From Candidatus Poribacteria bacterium (GTDB lineage Bacteria > Abyssobacteria > SURF-5): DNA of 15,080 nucleotides. Below the pieces are notes generated by a model. The model did not search any database and was not told where the DNA came from. It worked only from the letters and a program-made list of their open reading frames with translations. The translations under genes were made by a program, and so were the position numbers. Shown piece after piece: positions 100 to 13,968 of this stretch. How positions within the stretch are numbered: the stretch's first letter is position 1; each line of letters starts with the position of its first letter. The DNA is taken from the NCBI GenBank assembly GCA_016215705.1, contig JACRIR010000046.1, positions 1 to 15,080 on the forward strand. Direction: 5' to 3'.

Positions 100-1689
100 C
101 TACTTTCGGAGCGGTTTGCCGGGCAGGATGCCGGTATGCTGATCATCCTCGACGACAATTTGTCCGTTTACGATGACAGCCTTTATGCCGACAGGATACT
201 GATTCGGATTCTCATAGGTCGCGCGGTCAATAATTGTTTGAGCATCAAAGAGGACGAGGTCGGCCTTCTTGCCGCTGGCAAGTACGCCCCGGTCTTTCAG
301 CCCTATGCGGGATGCCGGCAATGAGGTCATCTTCCGAATCGCCTCGGGCAGCGTGATTATCTTTTCTTGTCGCACGTACTTCCCGAGTACGCGCGGGAAC
401 GTTCCGTACGTGCGTGGATGTGGAAGAGTCATCCCCAGCAGCCCATAAGGCGCAAAGGCCGCGGCATCAGAGCCGATCATCACTTTCGGACGCCGCATGA
501 ATGTTCTCACGTTGTCTTCGGATTGATCGATGACGTTGACGAATGCGACACAGTTGCACTCGAGGACAATGTCCATTATCGTGTCAATCGGGTCTTTGTC
601 GAGTTCCTCGGATATCTTCTTGACCGTTTTGCCCTGATACTCGGGATGCCCCACGCTGAGACCGATGAAAAGGCCGTCCCATCCGCCGGTCAAGTTCTCC
701 GGGCCGAACTCGCCGGCTCCTCTCTGCATCTCACCCTTGATTTGGGCCCGGGTTTGGGTGTCGGCAAGTCGTTTGAGCAGCGTCTCGTTACCCTGATTGT
801 GCACCCAGTGCGGGAGAACGGCGGAAAGTTCCGTATGACCCGCCGTATACGGGTACATATCGGCGGCGATGTCCATGCCCATCTTGAGCGCGCTCTCGAT
901 TAGCTCGAGCGCTTTCGGGCCGTCAGCCCAATGGTTTTGGCCTGCTGCTTTAAGATGACTTATCTGCACGGGTGCGCCGGAGCATTCGCCGATCTCGATT
1001 GCCTCTGAGATTGCCTTCAACAAGGTCTCTCCCTCGCCGCGCACGTGTGTCGAGTAGATTCCGCCGTTGCGGGCGACCGCCTTGTTCAATTCAATGAGCT
1101 CCTGAGTTCTTGTAAACGTGCCCGGCGGATAGATCAGTCCCGAGGACATTCCCCACACGCCTTGCTCGAACGCGCGATCAACTCCCTTCTGCATCGCTCT
1201 TATTTCTTCATCCGTCGGAGCGCGATCCGTTCGCCCCATTACGGCGTCGCGCAGGGTTCCATGACCCAGCAAATGGATGATGTTGACTGCAACGCCGTCT
1301 TTACGTATCATCTCATTGTAGTCGTCGAATGTTTTCCAACTCAGCTCCATGCCGAGCATTCTGGTGAGCGACTCGATTTCTTTTCGCGCGTCGCCTACGA
1401 GCGGCGCGGCCGAAAGGCCGCAATGGCCGACAACCTCCGTGGTCACGCCTTGATGCACTTTGCTCTCTGCATTCCGGTTTATCGGATACAAGAGCTCAGA
1501 GTGGGTGTGCATGTCGATGAAACCGGGCGAAATGTGGAGCCCCTCGGCGTCAAGTGTGCGCTTTGCCGGGGCATCGCCCAGGTTTCCTACCTCCGAGATA
1601 GTGTCTCCCTGAATTCCTATATCAGCTACGTATTCCTCCTTCCCCAACCCATCAAGCACACGGGCCCGCCTGATCAGTAAGTCCAGCAT
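100..1689 (-). CDS. N-acyl-D-amino-acid deacylase (D-aminoacylase-like amidohydrolase)
   Basis: Metal-dependent amidohydrolase, predicted to cleave N-acyl-D-amino acids or related N-acyl amides to a free amine and a carboxylate in the cytoplasm. Seen in the 529-residue product: an N-terminal beta-sandwich strand, then DMHTHSE with H61 and H63, GVTTEVVGHCG with C90, STHVRGEGE with H215, ISHLKAAG with H245, and IGSD with D408. The spacings H61-C90 (29) and H215-H245 (30) equal those of the metal ligands of Alcaligenes D-aminoacylase. The C-terminus has the usual GVLASGKKADLVLFD return strand. The start is ATG at 1689, because AAGGAGG lies 8 bases upstream; an in-frame GTG at 1695 is too close to that site. 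It is the last gene of the minus-strand run, 158 bp after the M20 gene. The family is confident; the substrate (D-acylamino acid, dihydropyrimidine-like or other amide) is not. Confidence 0.9.
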   Translation of the reverse strand: MLDLLIRRARVLDGLGKEEYVADIGIQGDTISEVGNLGDAPAKRTLDAEGLHISPGFIDMHTHSELLYPINRNAESKVHQGVTTEVVGHCGLSAAPLVGDARKEIESLTRMLGMELSWKTFDDYNEMIRKDGVAVNIIHLLGHGTLRDAVMGRTDRAPTDEEIRAMQKGVDRAFEQGVWGMSSGLIYPPGTFTRTQELIELNKAVARNGGIYSTHVRGEGETLLKAISEAIEIGECSGAPVQISHLKAAGQNHWADGPKALELIESALKMGMDIAADMYPYTAGHTELSAVLPHWVHNQGNETLLKRLADTQTRAQIKGEMQRGAGEFGPENLTGGWDGLFIGLSVGHPEYQGKTVKKISEELDKDPIDTIMDIVLECNCVAFVNVIDQSEDNVRTFMRRPKVMIGSDAAAFAPYGLLGMTLPHPRTYGTFPRVLGKYVRQEKIITLPEAIRKMTSLPASRIGLKDRGVLASGKKADLVLFDAQTIIDRATYENPNQYPVGIKAVIVNGQIVVEDDQHTGILPGKPLRK

Positions 1690-1797
1690 TATCACGTCCT
1701 CCTTTGTCTTCCCTATCTAGTAGAACGCTTCCTAAAAGTAGTATTGTATTCGCCGGATTGGTCGTTCCTTGTCCGTTTGCAGATGGCCGGACATCGC

Positions 1798-1825
1798 TGT
1801 CATTCCGAGCGAAGCGAAGAATCTC
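1798..1825 (+). repeat. 28-bp dispersed repeat, copy 1
   Basis: The core GAGCGAAGCGAAGAATCTC preceded by TGTCATTCC recurs at 7671-7698 with a single C/T difference. The ends ATTC and GAAT pair, so it is a weak palindrome. It lies in the 158-bp gap between the M20 gene and the aminoacylase gene. Confidence 0.8.
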
Positions 1826-1847
1826 AGTTTCGCGTTTCTCCTGCGCG

Positions 1848-3101
1848 CTAAAACGCCAGGTAGTGCACCAGTTCCTTTGTCATGTTAAGCAGGTCCGTGA
1901 CGCCCACTCGCTCATTAGCGGCGTGAGCCGACAAGTTGCTTGCGCGTGCGGGCGACATTCCGACAAACTTGTCCGTTTTGAGCGCCATGGCGACGCAGCC
2001 CATATCAGTTGAGCCGCCAAGTCCGCCCACCATGAAATCGCCATAATCGTGCACCGCCCGCCTGGCCTCCTTCATCTTCTCCATGAAGGGGCTTTTCACG
2101 TCGAAGACCACGGGCGGATAGTTATGGATGAATTTCACTTTGACATCGATCAATTTGCTGTTTGCGCGCCCGCGGTCGATCGCGTCTTGAATCTCTTTTA
2201 CCACGTCCTCATATTTTTCCTCTGGAATGTAGCGGCGGTTCAGAGTCAGATTGCATTCTCCCGGAGTGATGTTAGGTTTGGCTCCGCCTCGAATGACGGA
2301 GAGGTTCAACATGGGCGTGAGCTGAGTGGAAGGCGCATTGGGAAGCGGGAAAGAGGGAACCTTTGACTCCCTCGCTTCGACCTGTTTCTTCAGCGCCAGC
2401 AGTTCGTTCATGATCGGAACCATTTCTTCGAGCGCGTTCACACCCATGAAGTTCATGCCCGAGTGGCAGCTCTTGCCGACTCCGGCGATCATCACGTCGA
2501 TTCCGCCCTCGCATGCCTGCATTAGAATCGGCTCTTGAGCGCCAAGCTCGAGATTGAGCATGTGTCCTTGCACGTATCCATTCAGAGCGAGATGATAGAC
2601 GCCCGGATACACGCCGATTTCCTCATCGGTGCAGAGCAGACAATGAATGTCGAACTTCGGCTCGAGGGAGAGATCGTGGATCACCTTCAAAGCGCCCATG
2701 AGACACGCAATCGACCCCTTCATATCCATCGCGCCCCGACCGTAAAATGTGTCTCCTTCAACGATTCCCGCAAACGGGTCGCATTTCCATCCTTCCTCGA
2801 TCGGCACAACGTCCATATGCGCGTAAATCGAGACCGGCTCCTTCCCAACGTCTCGCGACGCCACCAGATTCACGCGCGGTCCCTCCAGCGGATATGGAAT
2901 CTCTCTTACCTTATCTTCCGGAATTATCACTCGCTCGGTCGTGAAGCCGAATCTCTTGAAGTCCGGTTCGAGCGCGGCCACAAACTTGTCGTAATTCCTG
3001 CCAGGCGGAACTGTCGTGTCTATGCCGACCAGCTTCCTCAATGTTTCGATAATGTATTCTCGGTTCGCTTCGACGCTCCCAAAAGCTTTTTGGTAATCCA
3101 T
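1848..3101 (-). CDS. M20-family metallopeptidase/amidohydrolase (ArgE/DapE type)
   Basis: Predicted dinuclear zinc hydrolase acting on an N-acyl amino acid, dipeptide or carbamoyl compound. The 417-residue product shows the family motifs in order: YAHMDVVP (H95, D97), GRGAMDMKG (bridging D126), TDEEIG (E160 catalytic base, E161 ligand), NLELG (E185, in the place of the usual Asp/Glu ligand) and SAHAANERV (H393). The dimerisation-domain motif GVGKSCHSG is at about 207-215. The start is the second of two adjacent ATGs (3101 rather than 3104), because GAGGGG then sits 6 bases upstream; a longer frame to 3155 has no ribosome site. It follows the thiolase after a repeat-filled 542-bp gap, so cotranscription is uncertain. 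Together with the downstream D-aminoacylase it gives two amide hydrolases in a row. ArgE, DapE, carboxypeptidase and acylase specificities cannot be separated from sequence alone. Confidence 0.9.
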   Translation of the reverse strand: MDYQKAFGSVEANREYIIETLRKLVGIDTTVPPGRNYDKFVAALEPDFKRFGFTTERVIIPEDKVREIPYPLEGPRVNLVASRDVGKEPVSIYAHMDVVPIEEGWKCDPFAGIVEGDTFYGRGAMDMKGSIACLMGALKVIHDLSLEPKFDIHCLLCTDEEIGVYPGVYHLALNGYVQGHMLNLELGAQEPILMQACEGGIDVMIAGVGKSCHSGMNFMGVNALEEMVPIMNELLALKKQVEARESKVPSFPLPNAPSTQLTPMLNLSVIRGGAKPNITPGECNLTLNRRYIPEEKYEDVVKEIQDAIDRGRANSKLIDVKVKFIHNYPPVVFDVKSPFMEKMKEARRAVHDYGDFMVGGLGGSTDMGCVAMALKTDKFVGMSPARASNLSAHAANERVGVTDLLNMTKELVHYLAF

Positions 3102-3346
3102 CATTCTCCCCTCACCATGTGATTTCGACCTACCCCCATTTCCAGTGTCCGTCATGATATATTGGCGCGTTACCGAAAGTCAACAACGGCGATTCTTAAC
3201 CACAAAAATGAGAGGAGCGCAACAGAAGAGAATCAGTTTGAATCTGCATAATCTGTGGACAATACCATCTGCGCTGCTAACCATCAATTTCTTGAAATCC
3301 TGTCGTGATTCTTGTGGCTGCATATGGATAACTGCTTGCCATTCAA

Positions 3347-3371
3347 TGGATTCCCGACTTCGCGGGAATGA
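3347..3371. repeat. REP-like short palindrome
   Basis: TGGATTCCCG and CGGGAATGA flank a short ACTTCG loop, giving a 7-bp perfect stem. It resembles the palindrome at 10343-10369, which also pairs ATTCCCG with an A/G-rich partner. Confidence 0.6.
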
Positions 3372-3407
3372 TAAGAAAAAGAGAATTCTTATTCGTGAGA
3401 TTCGTCC

Positions 3408-3463
3408 CGCGCCATGCGTCTCGCGTTTCGCGGGATGACATTCGTGTTCCTGGAGTTTCTTCT
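3408..3463 (+). repeat. 56-bp dispersed repeat, copy 1
   Basis: Matches 8890-8945 over 56 bases without gaps and with 4 mismatches by eye. The centre, CGCGTTTCGCGGGATGACAT, contains a CGCG-TTT-CGCG palindrome. It lies in the thiolase/M20 gap. Confidence 0.85.
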
Positions 3464-3515
3464 TCTTTTTTGTTTCTTCTTCTTGGTTGCGGCTAAGGTC
3501 TCTCTTCAAGCAAGA

Positions 3516-3541
3516 AGGGCCGGGGGTTGAACCCCGGCCCT
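3516..3541. terminator. Perfect GC-rich hairpin downstream of thiolase
   Basis: AGGGCCGGGG (3516-3525) pairs perfectly with CCCCGGCCCT (3532-3541) around a 6-base loop. On the minus strand it lies 100 bp after the thiolase stop. No clean T-tract follows on either strand, so it may be an intrinsic-like terminator, an mRNA stabiliser or just another repeat. Confidence 0.45.
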
Positions 3542-3643
3542 CGTGATTCCGACTCTCTCAGTATCGCCTTGCCTTACTCTCTTCTATCGGCAATCGTGGC
3601 GATGACATTCATCACTCATCATTGCGCATTCGTCATTCCTGCC

Positions 3644-4846
3644 CTACGACTCTCTCTCAATAATCGTCGCGATGCCCTGTCCGCCGCCAACGCACGCATT
3701 CGCAAGCCCATAACGCGCGTTGTTTTTCTGAAGAATCCGCGCGAGCGTGCCGATGAGGCGAATGCCCGTCGACCCGAGCGCATGGCCGATAGCCGTCCCG
3801 CCGCCCATGACGTTGACTCTGTTGGGATCGATGCCGAATTCCTTTATGCAGTTCAGCGCGACAACGCAGAACGCCTCATTGATCTCCCAATAGTCGATGT
3901 CTTTTGCCTTGAGGCCGGCCTTGTCGAGGGCCTTCTTGCTTGCCGGCACCGGCCCGGCCCCCATGATTGTCGGATCAACGCCTGACCAGCCCATCGACCG
4001 GATGGTCGCCAGCGGCTTGATACCGTTCTTTTTCGCTGTCTCTTTCGACATGAGGAGCATACCGGTCGCGCCGGCGTTCAGCGGAGAGGAGTTGCCGGCA
4101 GAAACGATTCCGTCCGGCCTGAATGCAGGCTTGAGTCCCGCGAGACCCTCTACCGTGGTGTCCGCGCGAACCGCCTGATCAACCTTTATGACTTTCTTGC
4201 TTCCATCCGCCTGCTCCGCCTCGAAAGGCAGTATCTCACCGTCGAAGAAGCCTTCCTTCTGACCCTTGGCGGCCAACTCGTGGCTGCGTTTCGCCCATTT
4301 GTCCATCTCTTCCCGTGTGACGCCCGCTTGCGCGGCCAGCTTCTCAGCCGTGAGACCCATATTCATCGTGGTCATCATGTCCCAGTGATGATACTGCTCG
4401 TCGCCGATGAGAGATGGATTCGGCGCGATCGCGTCGCTTCCGCGCGCCACGAGGTCCATCGGCACTCGCGTCATGTGCTCCATACCCAGACACAATACGA
4501 CGTCCGAGAAGCCCGTCATGATTTCCATCGAGCCGATCTGCACAGCCGCCATGGCCGAGCCGCATTGCTGGTCCACAAACCTCGCCGCGACGGTCTCCGG
4601 CAGATTCGCAAGAAAAACCGGAATCCTGCCGCCATAAGTCCACTGCTCGTTCACTCCCATTGCGCTGCCGGTGACGCAGTTGTCGATCAGCTTCGGGTCG
4701 ATTCCCGTCCGCTTGACCAGTTCTTTCGCCACGGCCGCAACAAGCACGTCGGCCCTGACCTGCCCAAACCAGTCACGACCCGGATCATTTGGTCTCGACC
4801 TTGACAACGCCGTTCTCAGATATCCCGCGATTACTACGTCTTTCAT
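3644..4846 (-). CDS. Thiolase (acetyl-CoA C-acyltransferase family)
   Basis: Condenses two acyl-CoAs or, in the degradative direction, cleaves 3-ketoacyl-CoA with CoA to acetyl-CoA and a shortened acyl-CoA. The 400-residue product has the complete active site: acyl-accepting C95 in QQCGSAMAA, N323 in NEAF, H355 in GGGTAIGHALGSTG and general-base C385 in NACVGGGQG. The His loop reads AIGHALG rather than the common ALGHPLG, a modest departure. The start at 4846 (MKDVVIAGYLRT) is chosen because AAAAGGAGAGGA lies just upstream and the protein begins like other thiolases; the open frame reaches 4885. It is 170 bp downstream of the crotonase gene, with a heptamer array between them, and is probably the thiolytic last step of the same pathway. 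Degradative versus biosynthetic use is not decidable. Confidence 0.93.
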   Translation of the reverse strand: MKDVVIAGYLRTALSRSRPNDPGRDWFGQVRADVLVAAVAKELVKRTGIDPKLIDNCVTGSAMGVNEQWTYGGRIPVFLANLPETVAARFVDQQCGSAMAAVQIGSMEIMTGFSDVVLCLGMEHMTRVPMDLVARGSDAIAPNPSLIGDEQYHHWDMMTTMNMGLTAEKLAAQAGVTREEMDKWAKRSHELAAKGQKEGFFDGEILPFEAEQADGSKKVIKVDQAVRADTTVEGLAGLKPAFRPDGIVSAGNSSPLNAGATGMLLMSKETAKKNGIKPLATIRSMGWSGVDPTIMGAGPVPASKKALDKAGLKAKDIDYWEINEAFCVVALNCIKEFGIDPNRVNVMGGGTAIGHALGSTGIRLIGTLARILQKNNARYGLANACVGGGQGIATIIERES

Positions 4847-4940
4847 TGTCCTCTCCTTTTTTCTTACTGCTCTTCCCAAAACCAATAACTCATTAGTAGT
4901 CTGCGTTTCACAGTTTGCAGTCTACGTCATAACCCTAAAT

Positions 4941-5003
4941 CGTAAACCGTGAACCGTGAACCGTAAACTGTGAACTATAGACTGTGAACCGTGAACTGCG
5001 AAC
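4941..5003. repeat. Heptamer tandem array (9 units)
   Basis: Nine consecutive 7-base units of the type CGTGAAC: variants are CGTAAAC (2), CGTGAAC (3), TGTGAAC (2), TATAGAC and TGCGAAC. All nine end in A-C and fit in register without gaps. It occupies most of the gap between crotonase and thiolase. No translated frame across it looks like protein. Confidence 0.85.
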
Positions 5004-5016
5004 CTCGCCGCGCCGC

Positions 5017-5862
5017 TCAAGTCAACGGAAAAAACTCCGGCATGTCCTTGCTCACCTTCATTGTCCAGCGAGGTGGTCTCTTCTCGAGGAAAGACATGAT
5101 GCCCTCGTTGCAGTCGGGCTGCATCCCTGTCCACGCGAAATACGTATGATTGATCTCCTCAACCTTCTGCAAATCGGTCTCGGCCAGAAACTGCCACAGC
5201 ATGCGTTTCGTGAGCGCCAGTGGCACAGGCGCCGCATTGGCCGCAATCTCCATAGCCAATTCACGAGCCGTAGCCGTCAATTGCGAATCCGGTACGACTC
5301 GACTGACGAGACCGCACTGCAGGGCCTCCTGCGCGCTGATGATGCGGCCGGTATACATCAACTCGGCTGCCTTGCTCACTCCGACTATGCGCGTAAGAAA
5401 CCACGGGCTCGCCAATTCCGGCACGACCCCTCGGCGAACGAACACAAGCCCGAAGCGTGCGCTCTCCGCCGCGATACGGATATCCATCGGGAGTATCATC
5501 GTGACGCCGACTCCGACCGCCGGGCCGTTGACCGCCACAATGACCGGCTTCTTGAGGTTCAGCATCACAGTCAATATCTGATCCACCGGCGTCTTGGGTT
5601 GTTCTCCGCCGTCCGGCTTTCCCTGTTGCCTCGAAGGATCGAAGGTGCTCCCGCCGGACGAAAGATCCATGCCTGCGCAAAAGCCTCGCCCCGCTCCCGT
5701 CAATATTGTGGCCCTTATGCTATCGTCTTTATCCACTTCTTGCAGCGCGTCCAGCATTTCCCCAACCAGAACATAGGTGAACGCATTGAGGCGTTCGGGC
5801 CGGTTCAATGTGATAGTCGCCACGGGCCCCGAAACTTCAAACAATATTTGTTGATAACCCAT
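5017..5862 (-). CDS. Crotonase-fold protein (enoyl-CoA hydratase/isomerase family)
   Basis: Acts on an acyl-CoA thioester: hydration of an enoyl-CoA or a double-bond shift. The 281-residue product has a crotonase N-terminus (TITLNRPERLNAF, 17-29), both oxyanion-hole segments (GRGFCAGMDL, 59-67; NGPAVGVGVTM, 112-122) and the C-terminal helices. A gapless match to rat enoyl-CoA hydratase (FG...LTR.VG) puts F141 where that enzyme has catalytic Glu144, while E167 matches Glu164; another Glu follows in RRGVVPE (E149). With one of the two glutamates gone, an isomerase or other crotonase reaction is as likely as plain hydration. GAGGGAG precedes the ATG. The start lies 21 bp after the dehydratase stop, so the two genes are almost certainly one transcript. 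Confidence 0.9.
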   Translation of the reverse strand: MGYQQILFEVSGPVATITLNRPERLNAFTYVLVGEMLDALQEVDKDDSIRATILTGAGRGFCAGMDLSSGGSTFDPSRQQGKPDGGEQPKTPVDQILTVMLNLKKPVIVAVNGPAVGVGVTMILPMDIRIAAESARFGLVFVRRGVVPELASPWFLTRIVGVSKAAELMYTGRIISAQEALQCGLVSRVVPDSQLTATARELAMEIAANAAPVPLALTKRMLWQFLAETDLQKVEEINHTYFAWTGMQPDCNEGIMSFLEKRPPRWTMKVSKDMPEFFPLT

Positions 5863-5883
5863 TCAAATCTCCCTCTCGCCTGC

Positions 5884-7347
5884 TTAGTCCTTGATGCCCG
5901 CAAGCCGCCTGACCATTGCCTTGCGCGCCTCGATGTCATATTGCGACGTGATCGCGATCTGCTCCATGATGGGCGAGCCGCCGCCATGATAGCCCCCCAC
6001 TGCCGCCACACCCGAGCTGGCTGAACACAGCAAATCGGCGACGTAGCGCCACAATTGCGCCGAGTTCTCAGCCGAAATGTCAGGGTTGCGCATGATGTAC
6101 TTGTTGAGCAAATCCTTGGTCTCGGGATTGATAAAGTCGCCCTCATACGGAAACGTCGCAGGCACTCCGCCCGCGAGATCGCAAAGCATTTCCATCTCGT
6201 GATAGACCGCCTCTCCCGTCAGACACCGTCCGACGTTCGCGTAGATCGAATCCGGTATGTAGTTGCCGGGTCCGTATGGCGTCTTTCCCATCCCGGGAAC
6301 ATACAACTGATTGCTGCCCAATTCGGATGCCGTGAATCCTGCGGCGTATCCCAATTCGGTCACCATGATAAACTCCGAAAGCTTCTCGCGAACATGAGGA
6401 GCTTTCTGGATGCCGTTGCACTCGGCAATCAGAGCAGCGGTTCCGAGCAACAGGTCGCCGATCGCAGGTTTACAGCCGGAATAACTGTGGCGGTGGAACA
6501 GCGCGAACAACAGCGCGCATGCGCCGCCGTGCAAGGTCTCACCGCACAGAAACACACGATCCCACGGAATCAATACGTTATCGAAGATTGTATACGAGTC
6601 CGTTGCGCCCGGCGTAAAACCCCTCGGAAAATGCTTCCGCGGACGCAGATTGTGGATGCTTACCACTTGCTTGATTCCTTCCCAGTCCGCAGGGATGGCA
6701 AAAGCGATGGCCCAATCCTTTTCATCAGCCTTGAGCGCGCGCGTGGGAACCACCAGAATCTCATCCGCCACCGACGCCTCGGAATTGTGAACCTTGCAGC
6801 CGCGCACAACTACGCCTTCGCTCTTGCGCTCGACCACTCGCAGGTAGAGATCAGGATCTTCCTGCTCGCTCGGACGCCGCATGCGGTGGCCCTTCACGTC
6901 GGTCTGTGCGCAACAGCCTACGAGGTCCTCATTCTGAAAGCGCTCAAGCCACTTCTTGAAATTCTTGTGGTATTCAGTCTTGCCGCTGTTCTCTTTGTCG
7001 GCCTCGTAGGACGCGGCATACAGCGCGTTCGTGCCGTCTATTCCCATGCAGCGCTGGATGCATCCGCCGACGGCCCGACACAGCATCCGGGTCATATCTT
7101 GTTTCTTATGAAGGTCTTCTTTGTTCTGGTGCACGTGGCAGAACCGGTTGATTACTTTCCCCGTGAGATGCGAAGTTGCGGTGCACAAGTCTTTGTTCTC
7201 GGGTTTCTCCGCCATGTCGAAGGTCAGCCCGATGGTATTGATGCAGTCCATCTGAAGCTCATCGGTCCGGTCAATTTTCTGACCGTTCACATAGATGTTC
7301 CGACGCATCTTCTTCAGACCCTCGATGTATTGCTGTTTCGTGCGCAT
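5884..7347 (-). CDS. 4-hydroxybutyryl-CoA dehydratase / vinylacetyl-CoA isomerase family (4-hydroxyphenylacetate 3-hydroxylase superfamily)
   Basis: Predicted flavin and [4Fe-4S] enzyme that dehydrates 4-hydroxybutyryl-CoA to crotonyl-CoA, or a close relative using another 4-hydroxyacyl-CoA. The 487-residue length is typical. The cluster ligands described for the Clostridium aminobutyricum enzyme (Cys99, Cys103, His292, Cys299) have counterparts with the same local spacing: C96 and C100 in GGCIQRCMG, H285 and C292 in FHRHSYSGC. Oxygenases of the same superfamily lack this cluster, which favours the dehydratase. The flavin-domain segment TDVKGHRMRRPSEQ (149-162) is also present. The ATG at 7347 has AAGGAG 8 bases upstream. 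It is the first enzyme gene after the regulator and is tightly followed by the crotonase. The exact substrate is inferred from the family only; the enzyme in this family is oxygen-sensitive, which suits an anaerobe. Confidence 0.88.
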   Translation of the reverse strand: MRTKQQYIEGLKKMRRNIYVNGQKIDRTDELQMDCINTIGLTFDMAEKPENKDLCTATSHLTGKVINRFCHVHQNKEDLHKKQDMTRMLCRAVGGCIQRCMGIDGTNALYAASYEADKENSGKTEYHKNFKKWLERFQNEDLVGCCAQTDVKGHRMRRPSEQEDPDLYLRVVERKSEGVVVRGCKVHNSEASVADEILVVPTRALKADEKDWAIAFAIPADWEGIKQVVSIHNLRPRKHFPRGFTPGATDSYTIFDNVLIPWDRVFLCGETLHGGACALLFALFHRHSYSGCKPAIGDLLLGTAALIAECNGIQKAPHVREKLSEFIMVTELGYAAGFTASELGSNQLYVPGMGKTPYGPGNYIPDSIYANVGRCLTGEAVYHEMEMLCDLAGGVPATFPYEGDFINPETKDLLNKYIMRNPDISAENSAQLWRYVADLLCSASSGVAAVGGYHGGGSPIMEQIAITSQYDIEARKAMVRRLAGIKD

Positions 7348-7385
7348 GGGACGTACTCCTTATGCTTGAAAACCATAGCCTTGTT

Positions 7386-7439
7386 AAGACAACTCACACC
7401 GACAACTCGCCGGCAGTTTGTCTTGACTTTCGGACAACC
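7386..7439. promoter_or_regulatory. Cluster of GACAAC-type boxes upstream of the dehydratase gene
   Basis: GACAACTC occurs at 7388-7395 and again at 7401-7408, 13 bases apart. An inverted partner GTTTGTC is at 7416-7422 and another GACAACC at 7433-7439. The outer pair AAGACAACT/AGTTTGTCTT forms an imperfect inverted repeat. This is a candidate operator about 40-90 bases from the dehydratase start. No convincing -35/-10 pair was found here. Confidence 0.35.
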
Positions 7440-7571
7440 GGGAACATCCTGCTTTGGAGGGCGACAACCATGTTATCACATCGCCCTTCCGGCTAACAAG
7501 GATGCGCCGAACGCGCATGTCCGGCGCAAGAGGCGCCTCCGTGTTCCTTCATTTTACCAGAGCAGGGAGAT

Positions 7572-7669
7572 CTGTCATTCTGTTCCCATCACTATCATTC
7601 GTGTCCCTCACTATCAATCTGTGCCCATCACTATCATTCGTGTCCCTCACTGTCATTCTGTGCCCATCA
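7572..7669 (+). repeat. Tandem array of alternating 20- and 19-bp units
   Basis: Five units run in register: 20, 19, 20, 19 and 20 bp (starts 7572, 7592, 7611, 7631, 7650). The type units are CTGTCATTCTGTGCCCATCA and CTATCATTCGTGTCCCTCA. The 19-bp units at 7592 and 7631 are identical, so the true period is a 39-bp pair. The array runs directly into the 28-bp dispersed repeat, whose first bases (CTGTCATTCTG) are the same as a unit start. Confidence 0.9.
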
Positions 7670-7670
7670 C

Positions 7671-7698
7671 TGTCATTCTGAGCGAAGCGAAGAATCTC
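7671..7698 (+). repeat. 28-bp dispersed repeat, copy 2
   Basis: Same sequence as 1798-1825 except for one base (T for C before GAGCGAAGCG). It forms the right end of the 19/20-bp tandem array. Confidence 0.8.
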
Positions 7699-7721
7699 GT
7701 TTGCATCCGCTTCATGCTCTT

Positions 7722-8390
7722 TCATATCATTCGAGCCTCGGGCTCCGCCTTCAACAAAATTCGAATCGCGGCCCGCGCCTTGTCGATCTCAGGCTTGCGT
7801 CCGCTTATTACATCGCTGTATAGGAAGGACTCTCCTATTCGAACCACGATATAGGCCAGCGCATCGAGGTCCATCGCGGGTCTGATGTGTCCTGCGTTCA
7901 CTTGATCCTGCAACGCATCACGAACGGCATCCGTGCACCTCTGCTGAAAAGGTGTGGATTTCGATGTGAGTACCCGCAAGGCATACTCGGGGTCATACTC
8001 CAGGAAGCTGCGCAGCGGTTTGGACGCCAACAAGTCATTCAGCAGCTTATCCACAACGTCAGCGATACGGTCGGCCCCCACGCCCCGAGATTGTTTTCGC
8101 GCCTTCTCGAACGATGCCGTGAACAACGACGAGATGATCTCGGCGTGAAGTAGATCGCGATTGCCGACCCATCGGAAAACCGTTGCGCGCCCGATGCCTA
8201 ACTCCGTCGCAAGCTGACCGATATCCAGCCGCTCGCCATTGAGCCATTTGCGACGCGCCAGCGCAAACAAATCGAGCGGCGTGATTCTCGGCGTCGATTC
8301 CGATGACCTCAACGTATGCGCCAGAGGTGTAAGCCCCTTTCGCGTGCCCCTGCTTTTCACCGCCGTCCTTGCCTGCCCGGTTGTCTTCAT
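7722..8390 (-). CDS. TetR-family transcriptional regulator, QsdR type
   Basis: Dimeric DNA-binding repressor predicted to control the adjacent catabolic genes. The helix-turn-helix lies in LDIGQLATELGIGRATVF followed by RWVGNRDLL, and the ligand domain carries DPEYALRVLTS and RIGESFLYSDVISGR. These patterns match my memory of QsdR-type TetR proteins; Rhodococcus QsdR is known to respond to gamma-lactones. The start is placed at ATG 8390 (223 residues): AAGGTGAAGGA lies 4 bases upstream, and the promoter at 8419-8447 would start transcription close to 8411, leaving a ~20-base leader. The longer ATG at 8411 would give a leaderless message. The N-terminal ~30 residues are basic and low in structure. 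The gene precedes the dehydratase on the same strand, 374 bp away. The ligand is unknown. Confidence 0.85.
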   Translation of the reverse strand: MKTTGQARTAVKSRGTRKGLTPLAHTLRSSESTPRITPLDLFALARRKWLNGERLDIGQLATELGIGRATVFRWVGNRDLLHAEIISSLFTASFEKARKQSRGVGADRIADVVDKLLNDLLASKPLRSFLEYDPEYALRVLTSKSTPFQQRCTDAVRDALQDQVNAGHIRPAMDLDALAYIVVRIGESFLYSDVISGRKPEIDKARAAIRILLKAEPEARMI

Positions 8391-8418
8391 TCTGTCCTTC
8401 ACCTTATCCATGAAAGAG

Positions 8419-8963: not shown

Positions 8964-9770
8964 ATGGCCATCAAATTCTCCATATGCACAGAGATGATCT
9001 TCCCTGAACTGTCCTCAGTGGAAAAACTGGAAAGAATCGCTGCAGCGGGATTCCAAACCGTCGAATTCTGGGACTGGAAGAACAAAGACCTCGGTATGGT
9101 CAGCGAGCGTTGCAAGGCGCTCGGACTGTGGATCAGCAACATGAGCGGCCAGCGGGCGGGCTCACTCCTCGACTCAAACGACCTCCGGGTCTACTCTGAC
9201 GAGGTTACCGTTTCCATCGGCGCGGCAGAGCGGCTTTCCTGCCCGAACCTCATGCTCTTGACAAATCCGCTCGGTCCGGACGGCTCTGTCCTCAATTCGT
9301 ACCCCGACGTTCCCCCGCGCAAGAAGAGGCAAAACTGCGTGCGCGCGCTCTCGCGACTGGCTCGGCTCGCCGGCAGACATGGCATTCGCTTGCTCCTCGA
9401 GCCGCTGAACACGCGCATCGACCATCCGGGCTACTGGCTCGACGACGCCGACCTCGCGTTCGAGATCATTAAAGAGGTGAATCACCCGAACGTCCTTCTG
9501 CTCTACGATCTGTACCACATGCGCGCAATGGGGCGGGACCTTCTTTCGGACCTCGAAAAGAATCTCGACCTTATTGGATACTTCCACGCGGCGGATTTCC
9601 CCGGCCGGCACGAGCCCGGCACAGGGACCATCGACCTTCCTTCAATCCTCCGGCTGCTCGGCTCCCTTGGCTACGACGGCGTAGTCGGCTTCGAATTCAG
9701 CCCATCCTCCACTTCGGACCACGCGCTCTCACGCATCTCCGCTCTCGTTGCGCAATTCGTTGCGCCCTGA
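8964..9770 (+). CDS. Hydroxypyruvate isomerase-like sugar isomerase/epimerase (xylose-isomerase-like TIM barrel)
   Basis: Predicted divalent-metal isomerase or epimerase acting on a small keto-sugar or sugar acid in the cytoplasm. The 268-residue product begins FSICTEMIFPEL as hydroxypyruvate isomerases do. It has the barrel metal-ligand positions E146 (LLLEPLN), D182 (LLYDLYHM, with H185), H208 (YFHAADFPGRHEPG) and E244 (GFEFSP). ATG 8964 is chosen because the family homology starts there; the frame is open back to 8811 but that part is translated repeat. There is no Shine-Dalgarno, and an extended -10 lies just upstream. It stands alone on the plus strand and ends 3 bp from the stop of a convergent gene. 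Hydroxypyruvate is the family's name substrate; inosose or other ketose substrates are equally possible. Confidence 0.85.
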   Translation: MAIKFSICTEMIFPELSSVEKLERIAAAGFQTVEFWDWKNKDLGMVSERCKALGLWISNMSGQRAGSLLDSNDLRVYSDEVTVSIGAAERLSCPNLMLLTNPLGPDGSVLNSYPDVPPRKKRQNCVRALSRLARLAGRHGIRLLLEPLNTRIDHPGYWLDDADLAFEIIKEVNHPNVLLLYDLYHMRAMGRDLLSDLEKNLDLIGYFHAADFPGRHEPGTGTIDLPSILRLLGSLGYDGVVGFEFSPSSTSDHALSRISALVAQFVAP

Positions 9771-11748: not shown

Positions 11749-12576
11749 CTATTTCTGGCCCTTTGACGGCTGCTGCATCTTCTTCATCGAATCTATCATG
11801 CTCTGCGTGTTGTCCATGATCTGAACGCCCGCCGGAGGCGCGAACAGGAATTCGGAATCATTAATCGGGACGTTTATCTTGTAGTTTGTATACGCGTGCG
11901 TCATCATGAGTTTGTTGCTCATGTCATATACGAACATCTTGTTGGGCAGGCCGGTGTCCGAGTTCAACCACACCGCGATCCTCGACGGACTCTCGTGCGG
12001 CCCCATCTGGCCTCCCGACATCCGCGTCGCCGCTTGCGAAATGTCTCCCTCAAACACATAGACGGATTTGCCTTCAACCGTTTTCTTTTCCACGAACTTT
12101 ATCTTGTCTTTGAGGAATGCGTCGAAGGGCCTCGACGGGTCTTCAGGCTGCGCGACGGGCGCCTGCGGATATTGTTTCCTGACTTTTGCCAGGTCCACCT
12201 TATGTGCCATTCTCGACGCCGGCATGTAATTCCATAGGACATCGCCGCTGCCGTACATTTCTTGCTTCATGCCTCCCGACATACCAGGGGGCATTCCCGG
12301 CATTCCCGGCGGCATCTCCGGCATCGAAGGCATGGCCATCGTCGTCACCATATGCACCTTATCCGGGCGTTTGAATGCCATAGTGCCGCTGCTGACCATC
12401 TTCTCTCCTTGCATCGCCATCTCCATTTTGATATCCGCCCTGTAACTGTTGACGGCCTTCGCCTTCTGCGTCACCTCGTCAATCATCTGCTGCGTCTTTG
12501 AATCCGTCTGCGCAAACGCAGCCGATGCAAGAACGAGAACGAATACAAACGCCAATACTTTCCGCAATGCCTTCAT
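11749..12576 (-). CDS. Exported LolA/LolB-fold protein with Met/Pro-rich insert
   Basis: Predicted periplasmic protein related to outer-membrane lipoprotein carriers (LolA superfamily), possibly handling lipids or lipoproteins. The 275-residue product has a signal peptide: basic MKALRK, hydrophobic core, probable cleavage after AFA at residue 22. The body has alternating strands with the pattern NSYRADIKMEM, GTMAFKRPDKVHM, GKSVYVFEG, SRIAVWLNSDTGLPNKMFVYD, and FLFAPPAGVQ near the end, typical of LolA-like proteins. Residues about 80-103 form a Met/Pro/Gly-rich stretch unlike the rest. ATG 12576 is chosen from the signal peptide and AGGAGGA upstream; the frame stays open to 12738 through repeat sequence. 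It stands between two 64-bp direct repeats. It is not a canonical LolA, and function beyond export is uncertain. Confidence 0.8.
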   Translation of the reverse strand: MKALRKVLAFVFVLVLASAAFAQTDSKTQQMIDEVTQKAKAVNSYRADIKMEMAMQGEKMVSSGTMAFKRPDKVHMVTTMAMPSMPEMPPGMPGMPPGMSGGMKQEMYGSGDVLWNYMPASRMAHKVDLAKVRKQYPQAPVAQPEDPSRPFDAFLKDKIKFVEKKTVEGKSVYVFEGDISQAATRMSGGQMGPHESPSRIAVWLNSDTGLPNKMFVYDMSNKLMMTHAYTNYKINVPINDSEFLFAPPAGVQIMDNTQSMIDSMKKMQQPSKGQK

Positions 12577-12927
12577 TTTGTCCTCCTGGTTTTTGTTTCT
12601 TATGCCTCTTCTTGTCTGATTCCCTCTTTGCGTCCTCTGTGCCTCCGCGGTGAAGAAAGCCGTTTTAGACAGCAGTGAATCTCTGTCATCATTTCCTTTT
12701 CTTCTCCTTTTCCCGAATCCGCGTTCATCTGCGGGCATCTGCGGTTAAGAATGTCTTTTGTTGTTTCTTCTTGTTCTTCTTCTTCTTTCCCCCAAATCCG
12801 CGTAATTCGTGTAATTCGTGGTTAAGAACGCCTCTTCTTTTTCTTTATTTCTTTTCTTCTTTTTCTTCTTCTTCTCTTGGTGGCTTCGTGACTTGGTGGT
12901 TAGAACCTTCTTCTTCATCCGCGTTTA
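12577..12927. other. Mosaic of short dispersed repeats
   Basis: 351 bp with no gene. From left to right it holds a partial hairpin-repeat copy (12630-12677), two degenerate cassettes of the type ATCCGCGTTCATCTGCGG (about 12717 and 12796) each ending in GGTTAAGAA, a pyrimidine tract of TTC/TTT runs (about 12834-12876), and the 64-bp direct repeat copy B (from 12869). Confidence 0.65.
12630..12677 (+). repeat. Partial copy of the long hairpin repeat
   Basis: GCGTCCTCTGTG followed, after a diverged middle, by GTTTTAGACAGCAGTGA. These are the right arm and right end of the elements at 8665-8791 and 14564-14697. The left arm is missing. Confidence 0.6.
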
Positions 12928-12932
12928 TCAGC
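12869..12932 (+). repeat. 64-bp direct repeat, copy B
   Basis: Second copy of 11669-11732. Its last bases (12928-12932) overlap the end of the methyltransferase frame, and the stop codon TGA (12928-12930, minus strand) lies inside the repeat. Confidence 0.85.
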
Positions 12933-13893
12933 GGGCCCCGGGACTCTCGTGTGGACCAAAACTGGCGCGATGTCCCGACACCCAGCCATTGATTATCCAG
13001 TACCTCGCCGGTTCATAGTGATTCTCGGCCGTATACGGAGGACAAAACTTGTCCCCTACCAGGTCCGCCCTCACAAAAAAGGCGTTTGTGCCGGCAACGC
13101 TGGCGCCGACAAGACTATATCCTCTGTCAGAAAACAGTCTCTCCATCGACTTGAGCGACGCCCCGAAATAATCGGTTCCATCCCACGAATGATTCGGGTC
13201 ATACTTCATTATCCACTCGATAGGCGGCGGAAACTTGGCGTTATACTCAATAATCACAATGCGCGGGTTGACCTCCCTGATTGCACTAAGGACATGGTAG
13301 TCGTTGCCATCCACGTCGATACTCAATATGTCAATCTCGCCGCTCAGGCCGGCGTCACGGAGAATGTCATTCACGTTCTCGACTGCTACGGAGGTTTCGG
13401 TGAGCCTCAATCGCTTCGTGTCCAGAAAAGCGCGAAAACTCTCCCGAATGGCCCCCGCAAACTCCGGGTTGGCCTCGACCCACACGCCGTTCCATCCCTG
13501 AATCAACAAACTCGCCGTATTGTTCTCCAAGCCGTTTCCGACTCCTATCTCAACAAATGTCCTCGAGGTCGGTCCGATCCTGTGCACAATCTCCTGTATT
13601 ATGCCGTCTTCGTCCGATTGCGAGTAGACCTTCCTCCCAAACTTCAAAAGCCTTCCCGGGTCTTGAAACCTCGCAGACCCCTGCAACGTCGAGATCGTCA
13701 GCAGCGTGAGCAGAGTGTCAAGTTTGCCCGCTATTACACTGAGATTGTCAAGTTTGTTGGAAATGATACCCGGATGGACAGAGAGGAGAGTGTCGAGTTT
13801 GTCGATTATGATACTAAGTTGACCGGAGATTGTTGAAGTGTCGAGAACCTCCTGGCTTCTTTCCGTTGTTCGCCTTCCAAGCCATCGAAGCAT
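12928..13893 (-). CDS. FkbM-type SAM-dependent methyltransferase
   Basis: Predicted class I methyltransferase that O-methylates a sugar or other small acceptor, often found with surface-polysaccharide genes. In the 321-residue product the SAM site reads FVEIGVGNGLENN (113-125), then WVEANPE (138-144), and DILSIDVDGNDYHVL (188-202). The segment VIIEYNAKFPPP (213-224) and FGASLKSMERLF further down are typical of this subgroup. Residues 25-70 are helical, with three KLD motifs (32-34, 47-49, 57-59). ATG 13893 is chosen because AGAGGA lies 6 bases upstream and the promoter at 13939-13968 would place any earlier start before or at the transcript start. The last ~15 residues (GHRASFGPHESPGAR) do not look like family sequence and end inside a dispersed repeat, so the original C-terminus may have been replaced. 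The acceptor is unknown. Confidence 0.87.
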   Translation of the reverse strand: MLRWLGRRTTERSQEVLDTSTISGQLSIIIDKLDTLLSVHPGIISNKLDNLSVIAGKLDTLLTLLTISTLQGSARFQDPGRLLKFGRKVYSQSDEDGIIQEIVHRIGPTSRTFVEIGVGNGLENNTASLLIQGWNGVWVEANPEFAGAIRESFRAFLDTKRLRLTETSVAVENVNDILRDAGLSGEIDILSIDVDGNDYHVLSAIREVNPRIVIIEYNAKFPPPIEWIMKYDPNHSWDGTDYFGASLKSMERLFSDRGYSLVGASVAGTNAFFVRADLVGDKFCPPYTAENHYEPARYWIINGWVSGHRASFGPHESPGAR

Positions 13894-13938
13894 ATTCCGT
13901 CCTCTGACTGCGTTCCATGTCCTCGCCACAATCGGCGT

Positions 13939-13968
13939 ATTATACAACGAACCCGGGACTACTGGCAA
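13939..13968 (-). promoter_or_regulatory. Sigma-70 promoter of the FkbM-type gene
   Basis: On the minus strand TTGCCA (13963-13968), an 18-base spacer and a perfect TATAAT (13939-13944). The transcript would start near 13932, leaving about 40 bases to ATG 13893 with its AGAGGA site. Confidence 0.65.

Follow-up and report, generated by a model that had tools for sequence, protein, structure and literature searches.

A predicted catabolic core for a hydroxylated acid, with an off-type 4-hydroxybutyryl-CoA dehydratase homologue, in an Abyssobacteria-related bacterium

4-Hydroxybutyryl-CoA dehydratase serves as a marker enzyme, both of 4-hydroxybutyrate metabolism and of two carbon-fixation cycles. 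The enzyme of Clostridium aminobutyricum (AbfD, PDB 1u8v) works by ketyl-radical chemistry, and we take its Glu455 to be a catalytic residue. The closest described relative of the regulator considered below is QsdR of Rhodococcus erythropolis (PDB 4za6), whose lactone pocket was predicted by docking to comprise E90, R96, F106, L158, Y159, P161 and L162 (PMC6262395). The initial annotation of the locus analysed here had brought these two systems together, proposing that a QsdR-type regulator heads a dehydratase gene run that ends in two amide hydrolases and serves the breakdown of lactones or N-acyl amides.

The window is a whole contig of 15,080 bp (G000:C227) from a source genome, G000, of 5.47 Mb in 270 contigs, 92% complete. 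Among named records, the most similar dehydratase (86% identity) is that of Candidatus Abyssobacteria SURF_17, to which the source organism is related. Six open reading frames lie on the minus strand in the order initially described, and Pfam and NCBIfam searches agreed with the families given (TetR_C_36, HpaB_N plus HpaB of the 4-hydroxybutyryl-CoA dehydratase family, ECH_1, thiolase, M20 and Amidohydro_3); the matches are long and their E-values, from 1e-25 to 1e-178, place them far above chance level. The features are as follows.

100..1695, minus strand: D-aminoacylase-like Zn amidohydrolase (Amidohydro_3), 531 aa; Pfam/NCBIfam, structure alignment
1848..3155, minus strand: M20 (ArgE/DapE-like) metallohydrolase, likely start at about 3104; Pfam/NCBIfam, structure match
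3346..3483, no strand: dispersed repeats between thiolase and M20 genes
3644..4846, minus strand: acetyl-CoA acetyltransferase/thiolase of PRK06445 type, 400 aa; NCBIfam, PDB
5017..5862, minus strand: crotonase-fold protein, PaaG/6ijk-like, without both hydratase glutamates, 281 aa; ECH_1, PRK08260 over cut-off
5884..7347, minus strand: 4-hydroxybutyryl-CoA dehydratase-like [4Fe-4S]/FAD protein of the HpaB superfamily, Glu455-less clade, 487 aa; Pfam HpaB_N/HpaB, alignment, tree
7572..7702, no strand: tandem 39-bp repeats and a dispersed repeat between regulator and dehydratase genes
7722..8411, minus strand: TetR regulator with a TetR_C_36 (QsdR-type) C-terminal domain; Pfam, best structure 4za6

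The six-gene run is not a single tight operon; its gaps measure 374 bp between regulator and dehydratase, 21 bp between dehydratase and crotonase, about 170 bp between crotonase and thiolase, about 490-540 bp between thiolase and M20 gene, and 152 bp between M20 gene and amidohydrolase. Dispersed repeats of the genome occupy the first and the last two of these gaps and also the region upstream of the regulator, and none was found between crotonase and thiolase. Intergenic repeat pairs 87-92% alike were located within the contig at 8665-8791/14564-14697, 3399-3466/8881-8948 and 1792-1830/7665-7702. Related copies of the dispersed repeats are present elsewhere in the genome, on further contigs (L096, L098), and there are few or none in the compared parts of G001 and G002, two genomes of the source organism's family. 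The repeats at the borders of the regulator and M20 genes fit a scenario in which both would have been joined to the core through rearrangement or insertion. At the other extremity, the D-aminoacylase-like gene ends at base 100, against the contig edge, and the run may continue further; its described end in two amide hydrolases is that of the contig, and the true end need not be there.

The remainder of the contig carries three further genes of note. A hydroxypyruvate-isomerase-like AP_endonuc_2 protein is encoded at 8967-9770 on the plus strand, divergent from the regulator gene, and this gene is as possible a target of the regulator as the dehydratase side. Farther on are a LolA_like secreted protein (11749-12738; weak match under the Pfam cut-off), whose low-complexity stretch (MPPGMPGMPPGMSGG) is rich in Met, Pro and Gly, and an FkbM-type methyltransferase-domain protein (12928-13968; Pfam Methyltransf_21, E 1.4e-7).

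The best PDB match of the dehydratase is 1u8v (E 4.5e-97). Alignment to this structure showed that C99, C103, H292, C299, Q101, Y296 and K300 are kept and that three positions are changed (T190S, E257D and E455G). We placed the protein in a tree of 55 rows. The AbfD group (10 rows, support 100/100) contained 1u8v, the vinylacetyl-CoA isomerase 6vjr and a second copy from the source genome. The window dehydratase fell outside the 1u8v clade, in a 13-row clade (clade B, 100/100) nested in a 42-row group without Glu455 (100/99). Column 455 holds Glu in all 10 AbfD rows, the vinylacetyl-CoA isomerase included, Gly in 12 of the 13 clade B rows and Ala in each of the 28 other rows counted. Given the absence here of Glu455, a residue that does not vary within the AbfD group, the enzyme may not share the catalysis of AbfD. 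The second copy, on contig C181 (L002, L096), is a canonical AbfD, 58% identical to 1u8v, with the Fe-S ligands, T190, E257, Y296, K300 and E455 all kept. A third HpaB/4-hydroxybutyryl-CoA dehydratase paralogue on contig C49 (L003, L097) has lost three of the four cluster ligands, with P, D and Y in place of C99, C103 and C299, respectively. The window dehydratase is a member of a side branch without prior study: our literature search, with most subscription papers outside its range, returned no paper on the Glu455-less clade and no account of the role of Glu455 in the dehydratase.

Glu455-less dehydratases of about 49-67% identity are also present in several archaeal lineages (L011, Lokiarchaeota; L015, Bathyarchaeota; L018-L019), a hint of inter-domain transfer. 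At four clostridial loci (L025, L028, L031, L032) two such copies lie close together, and at L025 and L031 a 3-hydroxyacyl-CoA dehydrogenase gene stands between them.

The crotonase matched PDB 6ijk and PaaG (4fzw_C). Residue comparison placed Val and Phe at the two hydratase glutamate positions, which presumably correspond to E144 and E164 of rat ECH. Both glutamates are likewise missing in the G001 and G002 orthologues, in 6ijk and in PaaG, and are kept in comparator crotonases from related loci. The Glu of a VPELA motif aligned with the Asp of the PaaG "PD" motif, which we take to be the catalytic residue of PaaG. The loss of both glutamates, together with the PaaG-like alignment, suggests that an isomerase-type role would be more likely than hydration. 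A general pairing of Glu455 loss with a PaaG-like crotonase was considered and rejected, since both glutamates are present in the crotonases encoded next to dehydratases of the sister group. The thiolase scored 591 bits against the NCBIfam equivalog PRK06445 (cut-off 511) and matched FadA and thiolases in the PDB; its active-site Cys, NEAF, GHxxGxxG and C-terminal CxGGG motifs were present in the sequence and alignment.

Dehydratase, crotonase and thiolase genes are adjacent in G000, G001 and G002 alike, at 74-88% identity and with otherwise different flanks, which bears out the grouping of these three as a CoA-ester catabolic core. When the amidohydrolase is counted with the core, identities of the G001 and G002 orthologues are 73-88%. 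In both genomes it lies about 2-4 kb past the thiolase, beyond unrelated genes (G001: URO-D protein; G002: ammonium transporter, methyltransferase), and the source genome has several paralogues. This link is thin, a co-location in three genomes of one family, and the amidohydrolase is best described as a loosely linked partner. An FrsA-like esterase gene upstream is common to G001 and G002, and none of the remaining window genes was found near their core loci. The M20 orthologues (78-81%) are on other contigs with different neighbours, and neither genome has a homologue of the regulator. The six-gene order, whose conservation in relatives had been proposed as a check, was found on this contig alone, and of the two hydrolases assigned to the module, the D-aminoacylase-like one keeps a loose link in 3/3 family members and the M20 enzyme is unlinked in both relatives. 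The regulator, a lineage-specific addition, and the M20 gene are local neighbours of the core, and neither is assigned a role in it.

We then considered the neighbours of related dehydratases. The same thiolase type adjoins clade B dehydratases at 7 of 13 loci. A 3-hydroxyacyl-CoA dehydrogenase is nearby at L005, L006 and L007, and an AMP-forming ligase at L005, L007, L008 and L009; L005 and L007 also have a branched-chain-type ABC transporter. Neighbours in the sister rows include 3-hydroxyacyl-CoA dehydrogenases, crotonases, thiolases, CoA transferases or ligases, and acyl-CoA dehydrogenases. The lack of a CoA-activating enzyme and of a 3-hydroxyacyl-CoA dehydrogenase, pointed out initially, was confirmed for this contig; both adjoin related dehydratases in other phyla. 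AMP ligases are numerous elsewhere in G000, G001 and G002, and several 3-hydroxyacyl-CoA dehydrogenases are encoded there too. Orthologues of the L006 dehydrogenase (76%) occur, unlinked, in both G001 and G002; a close one was not found in G000, at its 92% completeness.

The regulator matched TetR_C_36 with E 1.1e-36 (125.6 bits, cut-off 33.7), and its best solved structure is 4za6 (E 5.4e-21). The name "QsdR-type" holds at the level of this one domain; the protein is 31% identical to QsdR and did not group with QsdR and its orthologue, a grouping that the AU test given below did not reject. The domain was found in no other of 116 genomes searched, and in 0 of 20 genomes with dehydratase relatives, a count without a positive control of its own, the same model having matched the source genome. 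A search for the TetR regulator in plasmids gave no match. Among 396 genomes of an actinobacterial-type phylum, picked by its WhiB genes, 18 had a match over the cut-off. One of these proteins, L139, is 61% identical to QsdR and adjoins a phosphotriesterase (PTE)-family gene and an AMP ligase, as in the qsd operon, and was used as a control. In the regulator tree QsdR and L139 paired (100/99) with the window protein outside and weak deeper forks; an AU test did not reject a joint clade of the window regulator with this pair (p 0.115). A single clade with the most similar actinobacterial proteins (L132, L134, L137) was rejected (AU p 0.009). Three of the seven docking-predicted pocket residues (R96, L158, Y159) are identical in the regulator. 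This partial match is not diagnostic, and R96 says little because most proteins of the family have it and L139, in its place, has Leu. Other TetR_C_36 regulators neighbour GH31, beta-lactamase-family, acyl-CoA dehydrogenase, AMP ligase, FAA hydrolase, tannase-like and GGT genes, and with neighbours so varied the ligand is not deducible from the domain. A literature search on TetR_C_36 found nothing. An operator candidate upstream of the dehydratase was discarded: 75 of 300 shuffles gave a palindrome as good as the best one there (8 of 9), and relatives do not conserve the region.

How these genes work together can be read in several ways. A QsdR-like repressor could sense gamma-lactones (or AHL), the hydrolases would cut amide bonds, and dehydratase, crotonase and thiolase would degrade the opened 4-hydroxy acid. 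The QsdR domain with its three kept pocket residues, the loosely linked D-aminoacylase-like gene and the existence of PTE-family genes in the genome all speak for such a module. However, neither family member has the regulator, nor has any other dehydratase genome tested; R96 is widespread in the family but not kept by the orthologue of QsdR, and other TetR_C_36 regulators adjoin unrelated genes. Moreover, the M20 gene is unlinked in relatives, the PTE genes are unlinked and common to relatives that have no such regulator, and the window is without any known lactonase family. The lactone or N-acyl-amide proposal thus received little support, and we consider it very improbable. Equally improbable is that the six genes form one functional unit for an N-acyl amino acid, conserved in this species only: they share a strand and a consecutive order, but intergenic distances of about 150 to 540 bp, the dispersed repeats that border the regulator and M20 genes and the failure to find this gene order in relatives argue against it.

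Despite its change at Glu455, the dehydratase could be a functional 4-hydroxybutyryl-CoA dehydratase that serves a plain 4-hydroxybutyrate/GABA route. This has more in its favour, as the enzyme retains the cluster ligands together with K300 and Y296, and the partner genes suit conversion of crotonyl-CoA to acetyl-CoA. Against it stand the canonical AbfD already encoded on C181 and the split of column 455 between the AbfD group and the other rows, so that we find this route unlikely. A further idea, fairly unlikely and proposed tentatively, is that the Glu455-less clade might be a distinct radical [4Fe-4S]/FAD hydroxyacyl-CoA dehydratase subfamily of bacteria and archaea, whose substrate would differ from 4-hydroxybutyryl-CoA or whose reaction would halt at the 3-enoyl-CoA, followed in Abyssobacteria by a dedicated adjacent PaaG-like isomerase.

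We favour the reading that the locus probably encodes, in an anaerobic Abyssobacteria-related bacterium, a beta-oxidation-type catabolic core acting on a short-chain carboxylic acid that bears a hydroxyl group, with a divergent dehydratase whose substrate is not nameable from sequence. In the catabolic core so conceived, the acid would be taken up and activated to its CoA ester by enzymes encoded elsewhere. The [4Fe-4S]/FAD dehydratase, to judge by its kept cofactor ligands, would remove the hydroxyl at an unactivated position through a ketyl radical as in AbfD, and the PaaG-like crotonase would most likely shift the double bond. Hydration and oxidation would again depend on enzymes encoded elsewhere, and the thiolase, as its family suggests, would yield acetyl-CoA. 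The amidohydrolase may feed the pathway or have a common substrate range. A widespread paralogue clade that lacks Glu455 and keeps the cluster ligands could be mis-annotated as the AbfD marker in many genomes; it also offers a natural test of which residues dehydrate and which shift the double bond. For the regulator, a domain in common with QsdR does not by itself make a lactone sensor.

Compared with QsdR, the window regulator has the same architecture, a TetR N-terminal domain plus TetR_C_36, but lacks E90, F106 and P161, and no lactonase or acyl-CoA ligase lies beside it, whereas the PTE/ligase setting is present at the L139 control. The amidohydrolase has the Zn-site motifs of D-aminoacylase (HTH, C, H, H and D in the alignment to 1m7j), and shares with 1m7j and the N-acyl-D-glutamate deacylase 3gip the metal-site motifs HTH, C, TH, ISH and GSD; it differs from N-acyl-D-amino-acid deacylases in an extra segment between the aligned halves and in its PRK09061 score, 235 bits against an NCBIfam cut-off of 340. 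The crotonase resembles PaaG, a 1,2-epoxyphenylacetyl-CoA isomerase, and the "enoyl-CoA hydratase" 6ijk in the absence of both glutamates and in an acidic residue at the PD-Asp position, but its genomic partners are unlike those of the paa operon. The dehydratase shares with AbfD the fold family, the four [4Fe-4S] ligands, Q101, Y296 and K300 at about 39% identity, and departs from it in T190S, E257D and E455G, in its separate clade and in having a canonical AbfD elsewhere in the same genome. The locus is best read as an ordinary kind of acid-degradation cluster with an off-type dehydratase.
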